This document shows, one piece after another, positions 15,386-55,135 of a DNA stretch of 64,000 nucleotides. Below the pieces are notes generated by a model. The model ran no database searches and had not been told where the DNA came from. It worked only from the letters and a program-made list of their open reading frames with translations. The translations under genes were made by a program, and so were the position numbers. The DNA comes from Aurantimonas endophytica (lineage in GTDB: Bacteria; Pseudomonadota; Alphaproteobacteria; Rhizobiales; Rhizobiaceae). The stretch covers positions 248,001-312,000 of the forward strand of contig NZ_JACIEM010000005.1 in assembly GCF_014196845.1 (NCBI RefSeq). The letters run 5' to 3'. Each line of letters starts with the position of its first letter. The first letter of the stretch is position 1.

Positions 15386-15437
15386 GGAACTGGGAGATGC
15401 CGCTCGTCGTGGAACCGCCCGCGCCACCTGTGGCGTT
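15386..15437 (+). promoter_or_regulatory. Candidate EcfG-type promoter(s) for the first microprotein module
   Basis: Two GGAAC boxes occur: 15386-15390, followed 17 bases later by CGTG (15408-15411), and 15411-15415, followed 18 bases later by CGTT (15434-15437). Each departs slightly from GGAAC-N16/17-CGTT. The second ends 27 bases before the start codon. Confidence 0.4.
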
Positions 15438-15464: not shown

Positions 15465-15653
15465 ATGTCGAATATCGATCGCAAAAATCCGGAAGCCAGT
15501 CCCCTTCCCAAGGACCCGCCGCAAGGACGCAGAAGCAGCGATAACCTTCCGTCCCTCGACGAGGGCGAGGCAGCCGCCGAAGACATCGATGAGACGTCGG
15601 CCGGCGGCCTCCACTATCCCGAGGACGACCAGCCTGAGGAGCCTTCGCTATGA
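15465..15653 (+). CDS. Small acidic disordered protein, 62 aa (module copy 1, gene A)
   Basis: A 62-aa protein with a strong Shine-Dalgarno site (GGAGGAG, 7 bases before ATG). It is rich in Glu, Asp, Pro and Ser, with no hydrophobic core, so probably disordered. It begins MSNI and contains an IDET motif near its centre; both are shared with the 63-aa protein at 23973. Its stop overlaps the next start (ATGA). That the same two-gene arrangement recurs at 23973-24337 is the main evidence that it is a real gene. No known family is recognised. Confidence 0.68.
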   Translation: MSNIDRKNPEASPLPKDPPQGRRSSDNLPSLDEGEAAAEDIDETSAGGLHYPEDDQPEEPSL

Positions 15654-15826
15654 CCGTCGAAAGCACTATCCGCGAGGCAATCGTCGAAGAATTGCGGCGT
15701 CAGGCGCAAAACAGCGGCTCGAAGCTCAGGGTCGAGGCGAGTGATGACAAGGTGACGATAAACGGTCCGGTCAATCTCGATGACCTCGTGATGGTCGTTA
15801 TGGGTTCGGTGGCAGGGGGCCCGTAG
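15650..15826 (+). CDS. 58-aa conserved microprotein (module copy 1, gene B)
   Basis: A 58-aa protein starting at the ATGA overlap with gene A. The N-terminal half (about 5-22) reads as an amphipathic helix, IREAIVEELRRQAQNS. The rest has the strongly conserved VTINGPV and LDDLVMVV segments and ends GSVAGGP. It is identical at 42 of 58 positions to the 58-aa product at 24161-24337, with differences mainly conservative, as expected for selection on protein. No domain or function is recognised. A strong hairpin terminator follows. Confidence 0.75.
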   Translation: MTVESTIREAIVEELRRQAQNSGSKLRVEASDDKVTINGPVNLDDLVMVVMGSVAGGP

Positions 15827-15847
15827 CCCGCTGGAGCGACGCCATAA

Positions 15848-15883
15848 GGAGGAACCCGCCGGCGTTGGCCGGCGGGTTCCTCC
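15848..15883. terminator. Bidirectional hairpin terminator between convergent genes
   Basis: A perfect 16-bp stem (15848-15863 with 15868-15883) around a GTTG loop. It sits between the stop at 15826 and the convergent stop at 15889, so it can serve both strands. Confidence 0.8.
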
Positions 15884-15888
15884 GCGCC

Positions 15889-16335
15889 TCAGGCGGCTGC
15901 GGCCGCGTCCATCCATTCCTTGTGGCGGGATTCGTCGGCGTAGGCCTTCTGGAAGAAGGTACGCGCCTCCGGCGTCGCGACATCGTTCTTCGCCGCGTGA
16001 TCGTAAGCCATCTTGGTCTCGATCTCGTTCGTCGACATCGCCTTGAGAATGGTCTTGTCGCCGATGATGGAAGCAAGCGCGATCTTGCCCGTGGTGAGGT
16101 ACTGCTTCGCATCGCCTTCCTGCGGCGCTGCAGTGCCGATGGCGCCTGCCATGCGGGTCAATTCGGCCACGTGGCTTTCGTGATCCGCCTTGAACTCGAC
16201 GATCTTCGCCTTCGAGGCGGGATCATCCAGCTTTTCGATCGTGGATTCGTACGCCGCGATCGCGTCGTGCTCGAGGATGAGAAGGTTCTGAACGAGCTTC
16301 TCAAAGGTGTTTTCGGTACCGACTGTAGTGACCAT
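15889..16335 (-). CDS. Ferritin-like four-helix-bundle protein (DUF2383/PA2169-like)
   Basis: A 148-aa, almost entirely helical protein. Four helix segments carry metal-ligand-like residues: LEHDAIAAYES (20-30), ADHESHVAEL, NEIETKMAYDHA and DESRHKEWMD. This resembles the ferritin-like superfamily of short stress proteins, and a di-iron site is possible though not proven. The Shine-Dalgarno AAGGAGAA lies just before ATG. Neighbouring genes are stress-type, and a GGAAC box (reverse strand, 16388-16384) lies upstream without a clear CGTT. Confidence 0.75.
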   Translation of the reverse strand: MVTTVGTENTFEKLVQNLLILEHDAIAAYESTIEKLDDPASKAKIVEFKADHESHVAELTRMAGAIGTAAPQEGDAKQYLTTGKIALASIIGDKTILKAMSTNEIETKMAYDHAAKNDVATPEARTFFQKAYADESRHKEWMDAAAAA

Positions 16336-16405
16336 GGGGTTCTCCTTAGGTGTGATGCACAGGAAGGCCCGGAGCGACCCGTCTGTTCCGGAAGGCGGAG
16401 ATGCG

Positions 16406-17233
16406 CTACGCCCTGGGCAGCGCGATTTCCTCGAAATGGTCGGCGAGATGATGCAGGGCCGCGAGCATCTCGTGGCCCGCCATGGCCCGGCCGTGACCGG
16501 AGACGATCAGGCTCGGCTCCAGAGAAGCGAGGAGGCGGACGGATGCCGCCGCTGCCGCCCAGTCGCGCGTGAAATAGCGCGGCGGGCCGTGCATCTCCGG
16601 CTCCTGGACAGCGACCTCGTAGGCCGATTCCTGCCCGGTGGTGATCACCGCGTCACCGGCAACCAAAGTTTTGTCTGCCTCCCGCCAGAGGGAGACGTGG
16701 CCGGGCGTATGTCCGGGCGTGTGGAGCCAGCGCCAGCCCGGAAGATGCGGCACAGTGCCGTCGTCCGGCAACGACTTGAGACGGGCCGAAACGTCGATCG
16801 GCGAGCGAGGAAACAACGGAGCGAGTTTCGGCATGATGCCGCCTTCCGCGCCCGAGTCCGGTGCCGGGTAGGATTGCTGTCCCGTGAGGAAGGGGTGCTC
16901 GAGCGCGTGAGCGTAGATCGGCACGTCCCACTCCTCGCTCAGTTCCTCAAGAGCGCCGACGTGGTCGAAATGTCCGTGAGTCTGGATAATGGCCGCCGGG
17001 CGCGATGTCCCGAAGCGCGAGGCGATGCCGGAGGCGATCTGCCTTCTGGTTCCCGCAACGCCCGTGTCGACCAACACCCATCCGCGGTCCTGGGCGTTCG
17101 CCGGACCGATGAAGGCAACGTTGACCATCGCCGCCCGCAGGTAGGCAAGGTTAGGTAACACTGCGCGAACATGCGCGGAATCGACCTGCTCGGGAGCGCG
17201 CGCAGTCTCGGGTAGCGGAAGCTGGACACTCAT
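16406..17233 (-). CDS. MBL-fold metallo-hydrolase
   Basis: A 275-aa metallo-beta-lactamase-fold protein. The metal motif is THGHFDHVG, followed by a His in HTPGHTPGHVSLW, Asp in LVAGDAVIT and a last His in IVSGHGRAM, so all ligands of a two-metal site are present. The family includes glyoxalase II-like thioesterases, lactonases and others; the substrate is unknown. It is cytoplasmic, with no signal peptide. It is divergent from the small acidic gene at 17509. A near-match to an EcfG promoter (GGAGC-N16-CGTT) lies upstream on the minus strand. Confidence 0.87.
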   Translation of the reverse strand: MSVQLPLPETARAPEQVDSAHVRAVLPNLAYLRAAMVNVAFIGPANAQDRGWVLVDTGVAGTRRQIASGIASRFGTSRPAAIIQTHGHFDHVGALEELSEEWDVPIYAHALEHPFLTGQQSYPAPDSGAEGGIMPKLAPLFPRSPIDVSARLKSLPDDGTVPHLPGWRWLHTPGHTPGHVSLWREADKTLVAGDAVITTGQESAYEVAVQEPEMHGPPRYFTRDWAAAAASVRLLASLEPSLIVSGHGRAMAGHEMLAALHHLADHFEEIALPRA

Positions 17234-17508
17234 TTCGATTCCTGTCGCATGAAGCTATCGGCCGGCTCTGCAACGAGCGGCTCGCGCGTTGGCTCCCTCC
17301 GCGCGCCGGCAGATCCCGCACGCGACTAACGAAAAATCTCCTGCCGCAGCTGAACCGCCGGCAGGGAGAGGGCGGGAACGCGGCGGAACCCGCTCCGATC
17401 GCTCTCTCGGACACGCACGCAGCCGCTGGCCGGGCGCCATTCGCTCGAAACCAGGAACATCCGCAGCCCTGGAAGCTTTCCCATCCTGCTCAGCATGAGG
17501 AGATCGTC

Positions 17509-17745
17509 ATGTCCAAGACCAACGAAAACCTCGACGACGCCAGTGGCGGTGGCGGTATCGGCGACATTCCCGCACAGCCCCGAGAGGATCGACCCGCTTC
17601 GGTGGAGCGCAATGATCCCGTGACGGACGGCGAGGGTGACAGCGGTCGTATTGAGGGCGCGGCGCTGGCGGTCGACAAGGACGCCGCCCTCGACGGTGAG
17701 GATCCGGACGATACGGCAGACGAGACTCTCGGAGAGACGCCCTGA
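17509..17745 (+). CDS. Small acidic disordered protein, 78 aa
   Basis: A 78-aa protein with a clear Shine-Dalgarno site (GAGGAGATC before ATG). The composition is dominated by Asp, Glu, Gly and Pro, with no predicted fold, as in the two gene-A proteins at 15465 and 23973. Upstream it has GGAAC and, about 16 bases on, GCTTTCC, an arrangement also seen before the gene at 23973. It has no gene-B partner. The function is unknown; a stress-induced disordered protein is a guess. Confidence 0.6.
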   Translation: MSKTNENLDDASGGGGIGDIPAQPREDRPASVERNDPVTDGEGDSGRIEGAALAVDKDAALDGEDPDDTADETLGETP

Positions 17746-18052
17746 CGGCTTCTTGTCTCCCCGAGCTGGCGGGTCAGGCCGCCCCAGCCGCGATGAAGAA
17801 TCTCGGAGCTGATCGTCGATCGGCCAAGACTTCGCTTGGAGTGGCCTGGTTCCCTCCTATCAAGTTCGCGTCTACCGGCGGATGGAACCGGAGCGACGAT
17901 CCGGGACACGGTGCCGGAGCACTGCTTCACTGGGGCGTGGGCTCCTGCCGTTGCCCCCCTCATCCGGCGCCGCCCTCTTGGTGATCCCTCGGACACCGGC
18001 TCCGGAACCAACCACTGGATATCGACTTACGGTGGAAGCATTGGAGGTTCTC
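17746..18052. other. Intergenic stretch
   Basis: No gene is supported. It probably holds the promoter of the DUF427 gene; two GGAAC boxes (near 17885 and 18002) have no CGTT at the right distance. Confidence 0.35.
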
Positions 18053-18427
18053 ATGGACGAGCTACCCGGACAGACCCGAGGCGGGTCAACAGCCACTTCG
18101 CTTCGCATCGAACGCGAGCCACGTCCCGTCGTGATCCGACGCCACGACGCCGTCATGACCGCTACCAGGGATGCGCTCCTCGTTCACGGACTCGGCGAAA
18201 CGCCGGTCTATTTCGTGCCTCGCCGGGATGTCTACACGGAGCATCTGGTCGAGACCGGTACCGGTCCGGGTCTCGGCGGGCGGGAGATGAAATTCTGGTC
18301 CGTCACCGCTTCGGGCGGCGGGCTCGAGAATGCCGTCTGGATGTTCCTGATGCCGGAAGGAGAGACCGAGCCGCTCCTGGATCATTTCGGCTTCGACCCC
18401 AACCCGTTCAACATCACCGTCGACTGA
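18053..18427 (+). CDS. DUF427 domain-containing protein
   Basis: A 124-aa protein. Residues about 20-115 match the layout of DUF427: a beta strand with a VVIRRHDAVMTATRDAL stretch, then TPVYFVPRRDVYTEHL, the family's most conserved segment. Here the usual C-terminal Cys-Lys-Gly motif is replaced by GGREMKFWSV, so it is a divergent member. The start has a TTGGAGG Shine-Dalgarno site 5 bases upstream. The family function is unknown; these are small beta-rich cytoplasmic proteins, often in stress clusters. Confidence 0.72.
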   Translation: MDELPGQTRGGSTATSLRIEREPRPVVIRRHDAVMTATRDALLVHGLGETPVYFVPRRDVYTEHLVETGTGPGLGGREMKFWSVTASGGGLENAVWMFLMPEGETEPLLDHFGFDPNPFNITVD

Positions 18428-18710
18428 CCACCGCCCGAAGGCGAAGGAGCAGGGAGGCCGGCATGCTCGTGAACATCGACGCAGTCTGGCTGAGCGGACC
18501 CGGATGGTGGCGCCTCCAGCGGCCGGCCCGCGCTTCGCCGACGTAGCCGATCCGGGACTGGGAGACAGCGTTTCACCACCAGGGCCTTCGCCGACACTCG
18601 CGCTGAAAGCTCTTGTTCCAAGCTAGGCCTTCCGGGCCCTCGTCATCATCATACTGCATCGGGGCATTTTCTGTCGCCCCGGGGCTGGCCCGTCTGAAGA
18701 GGTCTCCGTC
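18428..18710. other. Intergenic stretch before the SDR gene
   Basis: Nothing recognisable as a gene or RNA was seen. A GCCCCGG-rich sequence precedes the Shine-Dalgarno site of the next gene. Confidence 0.3.
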
Positions 18711-19685
18711 ATGCAACGAAGCGGCTTACGCGGTCATGTCGTCGTCATCACCGGTGCCTCCAGCGGGATCGGACAGGCGACGGCAGAGGCCTTTGCCCGG
18801 TCCGGAGCGAAGCTGGTTCTGGCTGCGCGCGGGCGGGACGCGCTGGAGAAGGTGGCGGAGGGCTGCAGGAAGTTCGGCGGGGAGGTCGTCGTCGTGCCGA
18901 CCGACGTGACCGACGCTGCGGCCGTGGCCGCCCTGCGCGATCGCGCGCTCGCGCTCGGCGGACGGATTGACGTGTGGTTCGCCAATGAGGGCGTCGGGGC
19001 CGTCGGTCGCTTTCACGAGGTGCCGATGGAGGCTCACGAGCAGATCATCAAGACGAACCTCATCGGACATATGAACAGCGCCCACGCCGTCGTGCCCGTC
19101 TTTCTGCGCCAGGGCCGCGGCACTTTCATCAACATGATCTCGCTCGGCGGCTTTGCGGCTATGCCGTTCGCCTCGGCCTACAGCGCGTCGAAATTCGCGT
19201 TGCGGGGCTTTTCAGAAGTCTTGAACGCCGAACTGGTCGGCCAGCCGAACATCCATGTCTGCGACGTCTATCCGGCGTTCATCGACACGCCCGGCATCGG
19301 TCACGCCGCCAACTACGCGGGGCGCAAGGTCACCGCACCGCCTCCCGTCTTCGACTCACGAAAGGTGGCCGACGCGGTCGTCCGCCTGGCAAAGCGGCCT
19401 CGTCGCACGACCACGGTGGGCTGGGTCACCAATGCCGCCCGGATCGGGCATTTTCTGGCACCAGATTTCACCATCGGCCTCGTGAAGCGGATCGTGGAGC
19501 GGTCGCTGTCGCACGCGACCCCGATCGAGCCGACCAGCGGGAACCTGTTCGGACCTCCCGCCATCGCAGGCGGTATCGACGGGGGGCTGCGCTCACCGTC
19601 GCAGCGGCGGCAGGGAGCGATGGCTGCCGGCATTGCGCTCGCGGCCGGCGCGGGGCTCCTGCTGCTGTTGCGGTCGCGCCGCTGA
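18711..19685 (+). CDS. SDR-family oxidoreductase with a C-terminal membrane anchor
   Basis: A 324-aa classical short-chain dehydrogenase. The cofactor motif TGASSGIG is at about 14-21, catalytic YSASKFAL lies near residue 162, and Ser in ISLGGF precedes it. The usual NNAG motif is replaced by ANEG. The protein extends about 70 residues beyond the fold and ends in a hydrophobic helix, IALAAGAGLLLLLRSRR, which should anchor it in the inner membrane. The substrate is unknown. It is followed after 42 bases by the DUF2243 gene, so an operon is likely. Confidence 0.85.
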   Translation: MQRSGLRGHVVVITGASSGIGQATAEAFARSGAKLVLAARGRDALEKVAEGCRKFGGEVVVVPTDVTDAAAVAALRDRALALGGRIDVWFANEGVGAVGRFHEVPMEAHEQIIKTNLIGHMNSAHAVVPVFLRQGRGTFINMISLGGFAAMPFASAYSASKFALRGFSEVLNAELVGQPNIHVCDVYPAFIDTPGIGHAANYAGRKVTAPPPVFDSRKVADAVVRLAKRPRRTTTVGWVTNAARIGHFLAPDFTIGLVKRIVERSLSHATPIEPTSGNLFGPPAIAGGIDGGLRSPSQRRQGAMAAGIALAAGAGLLLLLRSRR

Positions 19686-19727
19686 TCGTCGGGCTTGGGC
19701 GATCTTCATCCGGCAAAGGAGAACATC

Positions 19728-20495
19728 GTGTCAGAGACAGCGTCTTCCGGTTCCCGATGGGCAGGGTATCTGCTCGGCTTCTCACTGGGCGGTTTCTTCG
19801 ACGGCATCCTGCTGCATCAGATCCTCCAGTGGCATCACCTGCTCAGCGCGATCAACTCCGACGACCTGAGGTTTCAGGTCGCGGCCGACGGATATTTCCA
19901 CGCATTCATGTACGTTGTCGCCGCGGCAGGCCTCTGGATGCTCTGGCGCTCCTGGCGGGGCGGCGGAGCAGTGTCGGGGGTCCGGCTGACTGCGGCGTTG
20001 CTGCTCGGCTTCGGCGCTTGGCATGTGCTCGACAGTCTCTTGTCGCACTGGCTCCTGGGGATCCACCGCATCCGGATGGACAGCGCAATCCCGCTGTTCT
20101 GGGATCTGCTGTGGTTCGTGGTCTTCGGCCTCGTTCCCATCCTGCTCGGCTGGTGGACGGGTTCCCGCCCGACCGGTGGCTCGGCCGAGAGGCCATCGGT
20201 CGTCGCCGCGGTACTGGCGACCCTCGTGACCGTGGGAGCCGGAACACAGGCCCTGCAACAGCCTCGGGACAGTGAGTTTACGACCGTCCTCTTCGCGCCT
20301 GGAACGGCCCCGGGCGCTGCCCTTGAAGCGATGTCGAAGGTCGGGAGCCGCCTCGTCTGGTCCGATCCGAGCGGCGAATTACTGGTGATCGAGACCGATG
20401 CCGGCGCTTGGGCATCGACGCTCTATGGGCACGGCGCCATTCTGGTCAGTGGTGCCGGTCTGCCGGCGGGCTGCTTCGATTATCTGCGGGTCTGA
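19728..20495 (+). CDS. DUF2243 integral membrane protein
   Basis: A 255-aa protein. GTG at 19728 is chosen because AAAGGA stands 7 bases upstream; the frame is open slightly further 5'. Four hydrophobic helices fill residues about 10-155. Conserved features are GFFDGILLHQILQWHHLL (first His-rich segment), the second-helix FHAF block, HVLDSLLSHW, and the FWDLLW segment. The His residues suggest metal or haem binding, as proposed for DUF2243. The C-terminal about 90 residues form a soluble domain after a fifth helix. Downstream, the neighbour is convergent. Confidence 0.78.
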   Translation: MSETASSGSRWAGYLLGFSLGGFFDGILLHQILQWHHLLSAINSDDLRFQVAADGYFHAFMYVVAAAGLWMLWRSWRGGGAVSGVRLTAALLLGFGAWHVLDSLLSHWLLGIHRIRMDSAIPLFWDLLWFVVFGLVPILLGWWTGSRPTGGSAERPSVVAAVLATLVTVGAGTQALQQPRDSEFTTVLFAPGTAPGAALEAMSKVGSRLVWSDPSGELLVIETDAGAWASTLYGHGAILVSGAGLPAGCFDYLRV

Positions 20496-20563
20496 CGTTC
20501 AACCACCCCCGCAAAGATGCGCTGCCGCAGATCCGCCCGTGGCCGTGGACGTATATGCCTGCG

Positions 20564-20983
20564 TCAGACGCCCTTTTCCTTCGCCTCGGCCAGAGCGAGT
20601 TCCAGCCCTTCCAGCAAGATGAAGATCAGACTTGCGACGAAGCCGGCCACCAGCCAGCCGAGCGGCCCGTCCATCAGAATGCCGCACAGATACGCCGCTC
20701 CCATCGCGCAGCCGACCGACAGCAGGTTGAGCATCCGGCCGAGCAGCTTGACCGTGTCGGACCGCTGCGGGTCTTCGCGGAGCAGCAGCAGCGTCAGCAG
20801 TTCTGCGACCATGAACGCGCATACCGCGCCTCCGGCTCCGGCAAAGATCTCGAGCAGACCCGGCGCTGCAATCGTGGCGAGGAGCGCGTAGGTGCCGGTG
20901 ATGGTTATGGAGAAAGCATAGGCTGACGAGTTGTCCATGACGCTGAGGCGCAGATTCTTCAGCAACAGTCGCTTGGCCGTCAT
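20564..20983 (-). CDS. Small integral membrane protein, unknown family
   Basis: A 139-aa protein with about three or four hydrophobic helices: SSAYAFSITITGTYALLATIA, then a segment containing AVCAFMVAELLTLLLL, then GCAMGAAYLCGIL and WLVAGFVASLIFILLEGL. It begins with a basic stretch MTAKRLLLKNLRL. The frame stays open another 29 codons upstream, but the polar, His-rich extension does not look like protein, and ATG 20983 follows an AGAGG-like site. No named family is recognised. Confidence 0.6.
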   Translation of the reverse strand: MTAKRLLLKNLRLSVMDNSSAYAFSITITGTYALLATIAAPGLLEIFAGAGGAVCAFMVAELLTLLLLREDPQRSDTVKLLGRMLNLLSVGCAMGAAYLCGILMDGPLGWLVAGFVASLIFILLEGLELALAEAKEKGV

Positions 20984-21336
20984 TCGTCTGCCTCTGCTGT
21001 GCCAGCCGCGCGTCATGCTCAGGCTGTGCGAGTGCGGCGAGTCCTGCTGCTCCAGGCGCTCCTGCCGCATCAGCCAACAGGGCTCATGTCCGGCTTCCGC
21101 TCCAGGATCTGCGATAGAGGGCTTTAAGGTTCCTCAACAGCAAGGGGCTCACTGTGCATCGTCAGCCACAAATGCGCAGACGCCAACTTCGCTCCCGACC
21201 ATCTGCACTTGCCGTGCCGATTTGACGGTGGCGAAGGCGCAGGGCGTCACGCCCGTCCAGGATTGTTTGCCTCGCCGCCAGGTCGTCGCAAGAGTCACTT
21301 GGAGGAAGGTCCGGTCGTCGGCTAACTTATTGTTCC
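20984..21336. other. Intergenic stretch between divergent genes
   Basis: No gene is supported. The plus-strand frame of the next gene stays open back into this stretch, but it lacks a Shine-Dalgarno site and precedes a clean signal peptide, so it is not translated. Confidence 0.4.
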
Positions 21337-21361
21337 GGAACATCAAAAATCGGCGTGCGTT
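21337..21361 (+). promoter_or_regulatory. EcfG-type general stress promoter
   Basis: GGAAC (21337-21341), 16 bases, CGTT (21358-21361): an exact match to the alphaproteobacterial EcfG consensus. It lies 47 bases before the DUF4142 start codon. Confidence 0.75.
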
Positions 21362-21407
21362 GGGGTGCCATGCGGGCAACGAGCCCGTCCAGCAAAGGAT
21401 CATTCCA

Positions 21408-22103
21408 ATGAACCGATATCTTGTCACCACAGCCTTGGCTGCAGCGCTGTTCGTCCCGAGCGTCGCTTCGGCCCAGACGGCCGCCCCGGCCACCCAGCAG
21501 CAGGCCGCGCTGACCGCCGCGGAATTCGTGCCGACGGCTACGTTCTCGAACCGCTTCGAGATCGAATCCAGCGAACTGGCGCTGGAACGCACCCAGAGCA
21601 CTGACGTGCGCAATTTCGCGCAGCGCATGATTCAGGATCACACTGCCGCCGGCGAGGCGATGATGCAGGCGGTGGAAGCCTCCGGCGCCGATCTCGCCGT
21701 GCCTGCGGGTCTGGACCAGCGCCACCAGCAGATGGTCGACCAGTTGCAGAACCTGCCCGAAGGCCAGTTCGACGCGGCATATCTCCAGATGCAGCGTCAG
21801 GTCCATGACGAGGCGGTCGCTCTCTTCGGCGCCTATGCACAAGGCGGCGAGGCTGGTCCCATCCGCGAATTTGCCGCGACGACCCTTCCGGTTCTCGAGC
21901 AGCACCATCAGATGGTCATGACGACGGGTGCCGACGCGACGGTTACGGGGTCGACGTCGGCAACGACGTCCGGCGCCACCGGAGGCTCGATGTCGTCGCA
22001 GCAGTCCGGCGCGTCGACGGCCACCAGCGGTCAGGGCGGTGCTGACCCGGCCGAGTCGACCACCCCTTCGGGCGGCATTGTCCCGGGGCAGAACCCCAAC
22101 TGA
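21408..22103 (+). CDS. DUF4142 secreted (periplasmic) helical protein
   Basis: A 231-aa protein. Residues 1-22 are a classical signal peptide ending ASA-Q. Residues about 38-168 are a DUF4142 helical bundle: NRFEIESSELALERTQSTDVRNFA..MIQDH (order), then LDQRHQQMVDQLQ, and VHDEAVALFGAYA. The last about 60 residues are a Ser/Thr/Gly-rich low-complexity tail. DUF4142 proteins are periplasmic, ferritin-like and stress-induced. AAAGGA precedes ATG by 6 bases. The exact EcfG promoter immediately upstream supports general stress control. Confidence 0.85.
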   Translation: MNRYLVTTALAAALFVPSVASAQTAAPATQQQAALTAAEFVPTATFSNRFEIESSELALERTQSTDVRNFAQRMIQDHTAAGEAMMQAVEASGADLAVPAGLDQRHQQMVDQLQNLPEGQFDAAYLQMQRQVHDEAVALFGAYAQGGEAGPIREFAATTLPVLEQHHQMVMTTGADATVTGSTSATTSGATGGSMSSQQSGASTATSGQGGADPAESTTPSGGIVPGQNPN

Positions 22104-22134
22104 CGCTAGGTGGGCTGAGCGGCAGCAAGTGCGA

Positions 22135-22156
22135 GAGCCGCCCAAAAGGGCGGCTC
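22135..22156 (+). terminator. Hairpin terminator after the DUF4142 gene
   Basis: GAGCCGCCC (22135-22143), AAAA loop, GGGCGGCTC (22148-22156): a perfect 9-bp stem 31 bases after the stop. It has no U-tract. Confidence 0.6.
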
Positions 22157-22257
22157 CATCGGCCGCAAGCGGGAGGATCGGGCCCCTATCGAGCAATGTG
22201 GTGCATCGCACAAAGGGGTTGTTATTCAAAACTCAGCTTACTGCGCTTCCGTAAAGC

Positions 22258-22749
22258 GTGAGGTTCAGCGCGGTGTCCAAGTCCCCCCGAAAAACTCGCC
22301 GCAGGTCGCGAGAGCTTGATATGAGACCTCTAACCAGGGCGGAGGCCTTACTTTTCCACAACATGATGCTCGGGCGGCTGTTCGGATGGGCCCGCGTGCT
22401 TGGAAGGGCTGGCGGGCGGCATTATTATCGAAGCCGGGAGGCGAAGCGTGCAGATGCAGTCTTTCGGCGTTTGATGCAGGAAGCGCCGTTGTTCGATACG
22501 CAGATCGCAGCGTTGATGGCCGGCGGCGACATTGCGAGCCTGTGGCCGCATGACCTGCAAACAGTCATCCGCTTCCAGATAGAACATAAGCCGCCGGAGC
22601 CTCCCAGCTACGCGGCCAACGCGCCAAGCAGTGCTGTGCGTGAAACCGGCGCTGACTGTTGGTTGCCGGGTTGGCTCTCGAACTTCAGCCGGCCGGCCAT
22701 GTACGAGGACCATCCGCCGCTGCCCCCGCAAGTACCATGGGAAAGCTAG
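22258..22749 (+). CDS. Hypothetical protein, 163 aa
   Basis: An open frame from GTG 22258 (or ATG 22321, 21 codons later). It is helical and Arg-rich at the N-terminus, with two segments that look like real protein, LFHNMMLGRLFGWARVLGRA and FDTQIAALMAGGDIASLW, and a Pro-rich tail. No family is recognised and neither start has a good Shine-Dalgarno site. It borders a decayed region, so it could be a degraded or lineage-specific gene. Confidence 0.45.
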   Translation: MRFSAVSKSPRKTRRRSRELDMRPLTRAEALLFHNMMLGRLFGWARVLGRAGGRHYYRSREAKRADAVFRRLMQEAPLFDTQIAALMAGGDIASLWPHDLQTVIRFQIEHKPPEPPSYAANAPSSAVRETGADCWLPGWLSNFSRPAMYEDHPPLPPQVPWES

Positions 22750-23110
22750 ACAAGATGCTCTGATCCTTGAAATTCTTGTGCGAGCAGTAAATTTTAATTA
22801 AGAACGTGCGCGCAGAGAGTTCCGGATTGTGATTGCCTGTCCCGCAGTTTGGCCCCGGCGCACATCTTTCTTGCGGCGCAGGAGGCAAGGTCGGCAGTGT
22901 CCCGCTTATTCCTCCGCGTTGGACCCGCGGCTTTGAGGCGCTCTCCGGGCGTCTGCATCACAGCACCGGGCGGCGCGATTTAGCCGGCCGTGGAAACAGA
23001 CGGGGTGGCGAAAACGATCATGCAGCTCTCGACCACGTTCAGGCCGTTCCCGCACACCACGAAGGAGCCACGTCGACGAACAGCGGACTTATAGAATTGT
23101 ATGTTCGGAG
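22750..23110. other. Decayed intergenic stretch
   Basis: Only short open frames with no recognisable protein. It begins AT-rich (AAATTTTAATTAAG near 22790) compared with its surroundings. Confidence 0.3.
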
Positions 23111-23640
23111 TTGGATGAGGTGGACAGCTTCGAGGCACTCATGACCAAGGCCCTGCCGAAGATGGCGAATGCAGCGTCGGAAGGGCAACTGCGGCAGGCG
23201 TTTGAGCAGCTCCGCTGGCATGACCGGCTGATCGGCGAAGATCGATGTCCCGAAGGCCGCGAAGACGCTCCGCCAGCAGGTCAAGGAGCTTCGTACCGAT
23301 CTCGGCTTCTCCATGGGCAGCTATGTCGCTCGTGAGATCGCACCAGTGGCACCAGATCGCGTGCAGGCGCTAATCCTGATTACAACCTCCATCCCGAATG
23401 TTGGGCGCCCGAGCGCGGCCGCCACGAGGTGATGCACGGAGGGCTGATCGAATTCGTCCCCGATCTGAAGCATTGCAAGCTGATCCTGACATGGTCCGCG
23501 AGTATGGCGAACCCGAGTATCTACGGCTCATGTGCCAGTGGGTACAAGAAAAACGGCCGTGTGCACGGACGGCAGATCGGCGTGTTCTCACGGCCTTCTA
23601 TATCGTCGCCGCGTTAAATCGGGAAATCGTTGCAAGCCCC
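23111..23640 (+). pseudogene. Mosaic pseudogene: DUF892-like fragment followed by an alpha/beta-hydrolase fragment
   Basis: From 23111 one frame gives DSFEALMTKALPKMANAASE with GQLRQAFEQ, closely matching the start of DUF892 ferritin-like proteins (compare KSLPKMSKKATSPELKKAFD in the intact gene at 54647). After a frame change, 23241-23432 reads LGFSMGSYVAREIAPVAPDR followed by VQALILITTS, the nucleophile elbow (G-x-S-x-G) region of an alpha/beta hydrolase. Further short coding-like patches (VREYGEPEYLRLMCQW, AFYIVAALNREIVA) lie in another frame up to 23640. Two families in broken frames point to deletion and decay rather than a working gene. Confidence 0.5.
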
Positions 23641-23972
23641 TGACGGGGATAGGGTGTCCACACTGGCCGCTGTTTCGCGTTGGGTGTTGGCAAGATCGGG
23701 GAGAGTGCATCAAACGCCTCATTCGAGCCGCAGGGCGGCATCGGGTCATCGCGCGCCGCAGATGCCGTCCGCGCGAACGATCCGAACGATCCGGACTTCA
23801 GCTGGGCAGAGCGCGCGAACAAGCGCCGCTGGCAGATGGCCGAGCGCAAGGCAGGGTGACCTTCCACCTCAGCATTTCCAACTCACGGACAGGCCGCTGA
23901 CGCCGGTGCCCGCCGTGCCTGGAACATCCAAGCTCCTCCGGCTTTCCTCTGACAACCAGAGGAGAGATGTCG
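23641..23972. other. Decayed stretch with a possible short coding remnant; promoter of module copy 2
   Basis: In one plus-strand frame ending at TGA 23857-23859 the text ANDPNDPDFSWAERANKRRW looks protein-like, but the frame has no good start. GGAAC with CTTTCC about 16 bases later lies near 23928-23954, upstream of the next gene, as it does before the gene at 17509. Confidence 0.3.
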
Positions 23973-24164
23973 ATGTCGAACATCAAGAGCCACGCTTCCA
24001 AAGAGAACAGCGTCTTCGAGGATCCAGAGTCGCTTTACGTCAACACCGGCAAGAAGCTACCGCCCAAGGGCGTCGACGAGTCCCTCGGTGAGGCGATCGA
24101 CGAGACAATGGATGAGGAGACCCAGATTCCCGACCATGATCCGGCGAGGGAGCGCTCCCGATGA
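23973..24164 (+). CDS. Small acidic disordered protein, 63 aa (module copy 2, gene A)
   Basis: A 63-aa protein. ATG 23973 is preferred to ATG 23967, because the Shine-Dalgarno GGAG (23961) is 8 bases from the former and only 2 from the latter. It also gives the same MSNI start as module copy 1. The sequence is highly charged (many Glu, Asp, Lys) and contains an IDET motif also present in copy 1. Its stop overlaps the next start (ATGA). The function is unknown. Confidence 0.68.
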   Translation: MSNIKSHASKENSVFEDPESLYVNTGKKLPPKGVDESLGEAIDETMDEETQIPDHDPARERSR

Positions 24165-24337
24165 CCGTCGAGATCGAGATCCGTCAGGCCATTGTCGAGG
24201 AGCTGCAGCGCCAGGCTGAGAACAGCGATGGGCAGTTGAAGGTGACTACGACGGACAACCGGGTGACCATCAACGGCCCGGTCGATTTGGATGATCTTGT
24301 GATGGTAGTCTTGGGCTCTGTTGCGGGCGGTCCATAG
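24161..24337 (+). CDS. 58-aa conserved microprotein (module copy 2, gene B)
   Basis: A 58-aa protein coupled to gene A by ATGA. It shares 42 of 58 residues with the product at 15650-15826, including VTINGPV, LDDLVMVV and the GSVAGGP end. Both copies have exactly the same length with no gaps. The N-terminal helix IRQAIVEELQRQAENS is amphipathic. The conservation and paired arrangement indicate an intact gene even though it lies among pseudogenes. No known domain is recognised. Confidence 0.75.
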   Translation: MTVEIEIRQAIVEELQRQAENSDGQLKVTTTDNRVTINGPVDLDDLVMVVLGSVAGGP

Positions 24338-24724: not shown

Positions 24725-24911
24725 CTATGTCTTCATCCGCTCTGCCGCGGCATCTGCATCAGCCCGTGTCGGCCCGTGCTTCTTGATGATCTCGCGAGCC
24801 TGTTCCGACGTCAGCCCATGCTTCTTCGCGAAGTAGCTGACTTCATACGGCTCAGCTCGCTGAGACCTTCGCCCGGTCTCGCCCATCGGTCTTGCTCTTG
24901 TCGTCCGCCAT
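24725..24911 (-). pseudogene. DUF3606 family gene interrupted by a one-base frameshift
   Basis: ATG 24911 follows a strong Shine-Dalgarno site (GGAGG, 5 bases). The frame reads MADDKSKTDGRDRAKVSAS and then meets TGA (24854-24852). Shifting by one base at 24854 continues EPYEVSYFAKKHGLTSEQAR and EIIKKHG to the TAG at 24725. The two parts together make a normal DUF3606 protein of about 61 aa. The break may be a recent mutation, a sequencing error, or, less likely, +1 recoding at the in-frame UGA. Confidence 0.7.
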
Positions 24912-25143
24912 GATGTCCTCCGCTGGTGGCGCTGTAGAGATGCGGCAGCCCGTCCGAATGTCGAGTGGTAAGGGGGCCTGCGGACTGCGTGGCGTGTTTC
25001 ACGGCCAAAGGCGCTTGAAGATCTCGTCGATCGACCCTTGGACGACCACGCTGTTTCCGCCGACGAAGAAGACTCGGTGCGTTCCGCGCCCGCCTGTTTC
25101 ATTCGATACTCGTTGTCGCATAACCACCAATTGAGTGGTACAA

Positions 25144-54646: not shown

Positions 54647-55135
54647 TCAGGCGGCCTTCTTGTTCAGCTTGCTCTCGCCGAGCTTGCTGAGCGCCGCGTC
54701 GGTCTTCTTTTCCTCGTCGAGCGTCGCCTGCAGGTGCTGGATGACGTCGGTGTGCTTCAGCGTCTCTGCCCACGAGACCAGCGTGCCGTAGCGGGAAATC
54801 TCGTAGTGCTCGACCGCCTGGGCAGCCGCGAGCAGGGCGGCGTCGAGGGTTTCGGCGTCCTCGATCTCTTCCATCAGTTCTTCGGCTTCCTTGACGATGC
54901 CTTCGATGGCCGGGCACTTCTCTGCCTTCGCCTTCTGGCCGAGGGTCTCGAAGACTGTCTCGAGTCGGGTCACCTGACCCTTGGTCTCCTCGAGATGCTT
55001 GTCGAACGCCTTCTTCAGCTCAGGCGACGTCGCCTTCTTCGACATCTTCGGCAGCGATTTCACGATGGTCTTCTCGGCGTAATAGACGTCTTGCAGCGTG
55101 TGCAGGAACAGGTCGTCGAGGCTCTTGATTTCCAT
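54647..55135 (-). CDS. DUF892 ferritin-like stress protein (YciE/YciF type)
   Basis: A 162-aa all-helical protein. The family's LFLHTLQDVYYAEKTIVKSL, KATSPELKKAFDKHLEET, AVEHYEISRYGTLVSWAE and LQATLDEEKKTD segments are all present. Glu and His residues on four helices probably bind a di-iron centre. A matching but broken copy lies at 23111. The gene has an exact EcfG promoter 44 bases upstream of its start, so it should be part of the general stress regulon. The tail ends in KLNKKAA. Confidence 0.9.
   Translation of the reverse strand: MEIKSLDDLFLHTLQDVYYAEKTIVKSLPKMSKKATSPELKKAFDKHLEETKGQVTRLETVFETLGQKAKAEKCPAIEGIVKEAEELMEEIEDAETLDAALLAAAQAVEHYEISRYGTLVSWAETLKHTDVIQHLQATLDEEKKTDAALSKLGESKLNKKAA

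Follow-up and report, generated by a model that had tools for sequence, protein, structure and literature searches.

A conserved BON-like microprotein with an AGGP end encoded in two gene pairs of Aurantimonas endophytica

We analyzed a stretch of 64,000 nucleotides (nt) of the Aurantimonas endophytica contig NZ_JACIEM010000005.1, here called the window, in which an arrangement of two small genes occurs twice. In each pair, a gene encoding an acidic protein (gene A) overlaps by the sequence ATGA a gene encoding a protein of 58 amino acids (aa) (gene B). A first-pass annotation of this DNA, made from the letters alone, had described the arrangement as duplicated; both pairs and both overlaps were found, and B1 and B2 are identical at 42 of 58 residues (72.4%) in an ungapped alignment. 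The features of the two loci are as follows, in window coordinates.

15411..15437, + strand: candidate EcfG-type promoter of copy 1, GGAAC-N18-CGTT, 54 nt 5' of A1
15465..15653, + strand: gene A1, 62 aa, acidic, isoelectric point (pI) 4.05, predicted to be unstructured, with a DETSAGGLxYP stretch near the C terminus
15650..15826, + strand: gene B1, 58 aa, trimmed BON-like microprotein, C-terminal GSVAGGP
15848..15883, no strand assigned: inverted repeat (perfect arms of 15 nt) separating B1 from the convergent ferritin-like gene
15889..16335, - strand: ferritin-like (DUF2383) gene, convergent with copy 1, PF09537 at E 5.9e-10, duplicated together with B in copy 3
23921..23945, + strand: weak promoter-like site of copy 2, GGAAC-N16-CTTT, not consensus EcfG
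23967..24164, + strand: gene A2, acidic, 63 aa from the ATG at 23973 or 65 aa from the ATG at 23967
24161..24337, + strand: gene B2, 58 aa, paralogue of B1, C-terminal GSVAGGP

Selection on gene B and its further copies

The best named match of B1 came from Aurantimonas aggregata, a species in which both kinds of B occur and pair one to one with the copies of the window. This pairing suggests that the duplication of B probably predates the split between the two species. Based on Nei-Gojobori counts, the ratio of nonsynonymous to synonymous change (omega) was 0.06 for B1 and 0.19 for B2, each compared with its A. aggregata counterpart. Between B1 and B2, synonymous sites were saturated, with a proportion of synonymous differences (pS) of 0.75 as opposed to 0.17 for nonsynonymous differences (pN), which, together with the full-length relatives present in other genera, argues that the likeness of the two proteins is not due to chance. 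Gene A was less constrained than B, with omega values of 0.51 (A1) and 0.32 (A2) in the same comparison. The first-pass annotation had held that a lack of homologues or an omega near 1 would point to noncoding or drifting sequence; homologues were found, and the two values for B are far from 1. We conclude that B is a genuine gene family and that purifying selection acts on it.

Instead of the two copies initially reported, we counted four B-like places in the genome. Copy 3 (C3:438822-438977) is a 5'-truncated B. It belongs to a stretch of 759 bases on contig C3 that is 94.9% identical to copy 1 and its ferritin-like neighbor (L022:4218-4978; numbers with L denote loci), and since this duplicate starts within B, at about codon 7-8, copy 3 has no gene A. 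In the duplicate, the ferritin-like protein is 99% identical, whereas B is truncated and carries a D at position 52, where all 30 aligned family members have a G; its omega relative to copy 1 was 0.41. Only a degenerate remnant of the A/B pair is left at copy 4 (C3:49674-49766), with GGAAC-N18-CGTT still in front of it. One truncated and one degenerate copy among four, along with partial copies in some genomes and a patchy presence, would be compatible with B being a decaying or selfish remnant without function that spreads by duplication. We regard this as very improbable, given the omega values of the intact copies (0.06 and 0.19), the eight residues that are invariant in 30 members, and the one-to-one pairing of the closest A. 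aggregata matches of both window copies.

Relationship of B to the BON domain and its C terminus

The first-pass annotation had recognized no known family in B; we found that it aligns with the BON domain (PF04972) along most of its length. The Pfam model scored 18.9 bits with B1 (E 0.0019) and 16.3 bits with B2, and no other Pfam family matched as many B members as BON did (8 of 30, best E 9.5e-4). In a profile-profile comparison, for which 27 of the 30 rows of the B alignment were kept and compared with 12 BON rows from relatives, residues 4-56 of B aligned with BON with a probability of 93% (P 3.4e-7, score 35.6), as opposed to a probability of at most 3.4% and a score of at most 15.2 for 20 column-shuffled controls. 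Furthermore, the B profile matched a segment (G202:C2:472703-472813, E 0.004) at a place where Pfam detects a BON domain above its cut-off (472697-472894).

The AlphaFold2 model of B, based on eight sequences, had a mean predicted local distance difference test score (pLDDT) of 81.8 and consisted of a helix (residues 3-21), two strands (27-30 and 35-38), and a second helix (43-55). The BON core was thus found in the prediction, namely, the order alpha-beta-beta-alpha and, behind strand 2, the conserved glycine G39, which all 30 members share. The third strand that follows helix 2 is absent, and B ends three residues past this helix. Since the BON domains of DolP are described as alpha-beta-beta-alpha-beta in the excerpts of PMC7806268, the B model corresponds to a BON fold without its last strand. 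B therefore shares with BON proteins such as OsmY and DolP the helix-strand-strand-helix core and an alignment that covers residues 4-56, including G39 and the second helix. It differs from them in its missing strand, its fixed AGGP end, a score below the Pfam cut-off, and its size, which is not fixed as had been claimed but ranges from 56 to 66 aa in 30 members. As judged by eye, it also differs in having no signal peptide or lipobox, and its product is probably soluble and cytoplasmic. The family of approximately 58 residues defined here was matched by no Pfam or NCBIfam model with an E value better than 9.5e-4, and it suggests that the last strand is dispensable for a free-standing BON-like core.

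The most unusual feature of B is its AGGP end. Eight residues are invariant in 30 aligned members (E14, R17, Q18, G39, G52, A55, G56, and P58). Among 60 distinct B segments, each covering at least 41 of the 58 model positions, 59 terminate precisely where the model does, 58 of them in AGGP and one in AGAP, although the profile includes the tail and many of the segments are close relatives, so that these ends are not independent events. The remaining segment (L108), which presumably represents a broken gene, runs beyond the model end. The end codons differ between copies 1 and 2, indicating that the peptide rather than the DNA has been kept. This strikingly conserved motif is directly testable. 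A further idea, which we consider quite improbable, is that the AGGP end is the working part of a stand-alone half-BON, a C-terminal handle that would make B a stress-induced tag or adaptor of an undescribed kind; such a handle may be a docking or degradation signal, a conjugation site like that of modifiers that end in GG, or a Pro-stop signal for programmed slow termination. The literature was searched for C-terminal proline in connection with termination, with no specific result.

The C terminus also raised the idea that B is the precursor of a ribosomally synthesized and posttranslationally modified peptide (RiPP) or an NHLP-type leader (TIGR03793), with A or a neighbor as the processing partner. 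NHLP leaders presumably have a similar topology, with helix, strands, and helix in this order and an end near VAGG, and two such leaders in locus L139 end in LSDADLEAVAGG or LSDADLDAVAGG, superficially resembling the GSVAGGP of B. However, the profile-profile comparison of B with these two leaders gave a probability of 0.5% (a weak test, with two rows only), the NCBIfam matches of the 30 members at E <= 10 include no NHLP model, no core peptide follows GGP, and no modifying enzyme was recognized in 95 neighboring open reading frames (ORFs), among the 25 of 119 Pfam families listed for them. We set this idea aside, as the profile comparison does not support it, and give it hardly any credence.

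Upstream partners and distribution of B

Gene A was found to encode an acidic protein that is predicted to be disordered, in line with the initial claim: its pI is 4.05 in copy 1 and 4.61 in the 63-aa form of copy 2, and AlphaFold2 predicted no structure (pLDDT 61.8). The alternative start of A2 is an in-frame ATG upstream of 23973 that would give a protein beginning with MSMSNI. The ATGA overlap of A with B is present in all nine intact Aurantimonas/Aureimonas loci; A keeps the DET motif, and the AGGLxYP/FP stretch is present in six of eight aligned rows. These data would fit an obligate two-component unit, in which an unstructured A wraps or regulates B or the two form a pair of the toxin-antitoxin type. 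We consider such a unit rather unlikely, because at the other loci examined A does not lie beside B (the rest of those genomes was not searched for A), because its position is taken by unrelated genes, which at L073 and L074 likewise overlap B by 4 nt, and because A evolves faster (omega 0.3-0.5). A toxin-antitoxin system was rejected as a general reading for the same lack of linkage, A being beside B only in Aurantimonas/Aureimonas. Of the initial proposal that the two products act together, the coupling holds for the intact loci of these two genera, whereas the other upstream genes, the weaker constraint on A, and its lack of predicted structure speak against it. Since A accompanies B in one group and other genes do so elsewhere, the conserved unit is B and not the pair. 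We regard A as an unstructured companion whose translation is coupled to that of B in Aurantimonas/Aureimonas loci rather than as an indispensable component of a two-part system, a distinction that points experiments at the right gene.

At the loci examined outside Aurantimonas/Aureimonas, B is preceded by other genes or by none close by. (i) At L058, L059, L073, and L074, a protein unrelated to A that ends in FWKWVPAI precedes or overlaps B. It has the conserved pattern LPLRIGxYVPDDLL...EGVFWKWVPAI and possibly represents an unnamed family; two of these proteins were tested and had no Pfam match. (ii) The gene before B clusters with the DUF3606 gene of L023 at L067 and looks, by eye, Lrp/AsnC-like at L014 and L071. 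(iii) Among 32 loci of presumed Bradyrhizobium, not counting 4 of the 28 loci L080-L107 that misfit the start pattern, three types of preceding protein were distinguished by eye or pattern: Cys-rich proteins (11 loci), KEKP...KWHETNTH proteins (9 loci), and FAD-reductase-like proteins (4 loci). The remaining 8 loci show none of the three before B. At the 11 loci with the Cys-rich protein (L064, L066, L081, L082, L092, L094, and L101-L105), B lies 10-11 nt downstream of it and is likely in an operon with it; by eye, this protein resembles four-helix copper-binding proteins. The small hydrophilic protein ending in KWHETNTH lies 33-65 nt before B (L060, L063, L086, L087, L089, L091, L095, L097, and L098). 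No conserved neighbor pointed to a function, the commonest Pfam family being present in 4 of the 95 neighboring ORFs with 25 of 119 families listed; these 95 were the ORFs scanned out of 213 listed by a rough home-made gene caller.

To survey the distribution of B, we searched genomes at several taxonomic levels. A search with the single protein found B in 11 of 199 genomes of the GTDB family. The profile search of the order gave matches at E <= 0.01 in 24 of 397 genomes; in 16 of them, across eight GTDB families including that of the window, matches reach the model end, and the other 8 have partial matches, mostly within longer frames. In the class, 7 of 385 genomes had matches, at full length only in the genome analyzed here and in one other member of the order, and in the phylum, 7 of 249, six from the same order and one with a partial match from elsewhere. 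The order, class, and phylum searches were capped at 16, 17, and 26 scored first-look candidates per genome, respectively, so that weak matches may be missed. The own genus contained B in 3 of 8 genomes, and a genus presumed to be Bradyrhizobium, as inferred from likeness to a B. barranii gene, in 33 of 60, four of them with only partial or split copies. One plasmid record, from Bradyrhizobium barranii, carries B. No full-length relative was found outside the order in the sampled class and phylum genomes. As far as sampled, B is a patchy family of the order Hyphomicrobiales, the order name being taken from named records. A viral or phage origin was discarded, as no relative was confirmed in viral contigs and none was found in phage records.

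EcfG-type motifs and a possible role in the general stress response

Within the genus, copy 1 is present in three genomes, among them A. aggregata (L005) and L211, and its GGAAC-N18-CGTT site aligns at the same place in all of them. In the excerpts of the respective reports, the EcfG motif is given as GGAAC-N16-CGTT for Rhizobium etli (PMC3892343) and as GGAAC-N17-20-GTT for Sphingomonas melonis (PMC6599016); N18-CGTT equals N19-GTT, and the site of copy 1 hence fits the S. melonis form only and not that of R. etli. We met no mention of B in the literature searched, including the excerpts of these two reports. The GGAAC-N16-CTTT string of copy 2 recurs in A. aggregata (L007). Within 500 nt before B, the motif was present at 6 of 32 loci, with 0.8 expected. 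Around 20 B loci outside the named Aurantimonas/Aureimonas loci, one of which is a broken copy (L075), GGAAC-N16-18-CGTT occurred at 15 sites in 235.5 kb, compared with 3 sites in 40 control regions that were taken from the same genomes and total 471 kb, and at least one site was present in 8 of 20 B loci and 3 of 40 controls (Fisher p 0.004). Two scrambled motifs showed no excess, with 4 and 11 and with 4 and 10 sites in B loci and controls, respectively.

We consider it moderately probable that B is a BON-like microprotein tied, at least in part, to the general stress response, with an open sheet edge and an AGGP tail that serve for binding. The purifying selection, the BON profile similarity, the predicted fold, the conservation of the end, and the promoter site of copy 1 were computed, and we infer stress induction, the oligomeric state, and the ligand. 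B would be a shortened BON-like domain in which helix, two strands, and helix are followed by a fixed AGGP that replaces the last BON strand, and it would be made during the general stress response. The missing third strand would leave an open sheet edge, which may be covered by self-association or by a partner; contacts would be made through the GSxAGGP tail and through the conserved face of helix 1 that bears ELxRQ. If B acts like BON domains, of which those of DolP are linked to phospholipid binding and an envelope location, it may bind a macromolecular surface, for example, anionic phospholipid or another protein.

A number of results weigh against this reading. (i) The motif lies in the 150 nt that precede the unit in 5 of 54 units, with 1.1 expected; these units do not include L211 or the 4 misfitting loci among L080-L107, and the motif of L059, which overlaps the assigned start codon of the upstream gene, was not counted. 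A family-wide EcfG promoter directly before B was accordingly dropped as a weak candidate. Copy 2 has no consensus EcfG site. (ii) The excess around B was weaker for N16-17-CGTT (13 and 3 sites, 6 of 20 and 3 of 40 regions, p 0.03), and the looser GGAAC-N17-20-[CG]GTT gave 17 sites compared with 21 in controls, in half the length, corresponding to 1.6-fold per base. Eight of the 15 strict sites came from two syntenic loci (L060 and L063, four each), the spacer range was chosen after copy 1 had been seen, and the control places were hand-picked. (iii) The other genes of the window were uninformative as stress markers, none being clearly commoner near B than in controls. (iv) The scores of B1 and B2 (18.9 and 16.3 bits) lie under the curated Pfam cut-off for BON of 27 bits, and a Foldseek search of the B model against the PDB had a best E of 0.12, with no BON among the best 50 of 674 matches. 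In view of these two results, we speak of a trimmed, BON-like protein and refrain from assigning B to the BON family. A PDB sequence search with the B profile likewise had a best E of 0.035, for a match not recognizably BON. (v) The presence of B is patchy, in 3 of 8 genomes of the genus and 33 of 60 of presumed Bradyrhizobium.

The stress-linked role proposed in the first-pass annotation is thus plausible but not proven, with the EcfG-type site of copy 1 and the excess of the strict motif in its favor and the small excess of the looser motif against it. B resembles small proteins of the EcfG regulon of Alphaproteobacteria in these first two features and in having neighbors of the DUF3606, DUF2383, or DUF892 type at some loci; it differs in that a consensus site directly precedes the unit in a minority of B loci and in that the excess nearly disappears with the looser motif.

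The ferritin-like gene that had been noted beside copy 1 is present. The inverted repeat at 15848..15883, as read by eye, is probably a terminator shared by B1 and this gene; its arms also match the loose EcfG pattern on both strands. We could not confirm the broken DUF892 gene that had been claimed ahead of copy 2: neither of the two ORFs at this place has a Pfam match at E <= 0.01, and the DUF892-like protein of the window (54647-55135) gave no match at E <= 10 in 23000-23960, although the stretch 23111-23332 is, by eye, reminiscent of it. The gene of this DUF892-like protein is open, appears YciF-like by eye, and is distant from the A/B pairs. Near copy 2, a DUF3606-like ORF is found at 24725-25102 (E 3.8e-5, just below the cut-off). 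Between both pairs, an ORF at 20931-22103 contains a DUF4142 domain (PF13628, E 1.2e-36), and its real start is probably 3' of the first start codon.

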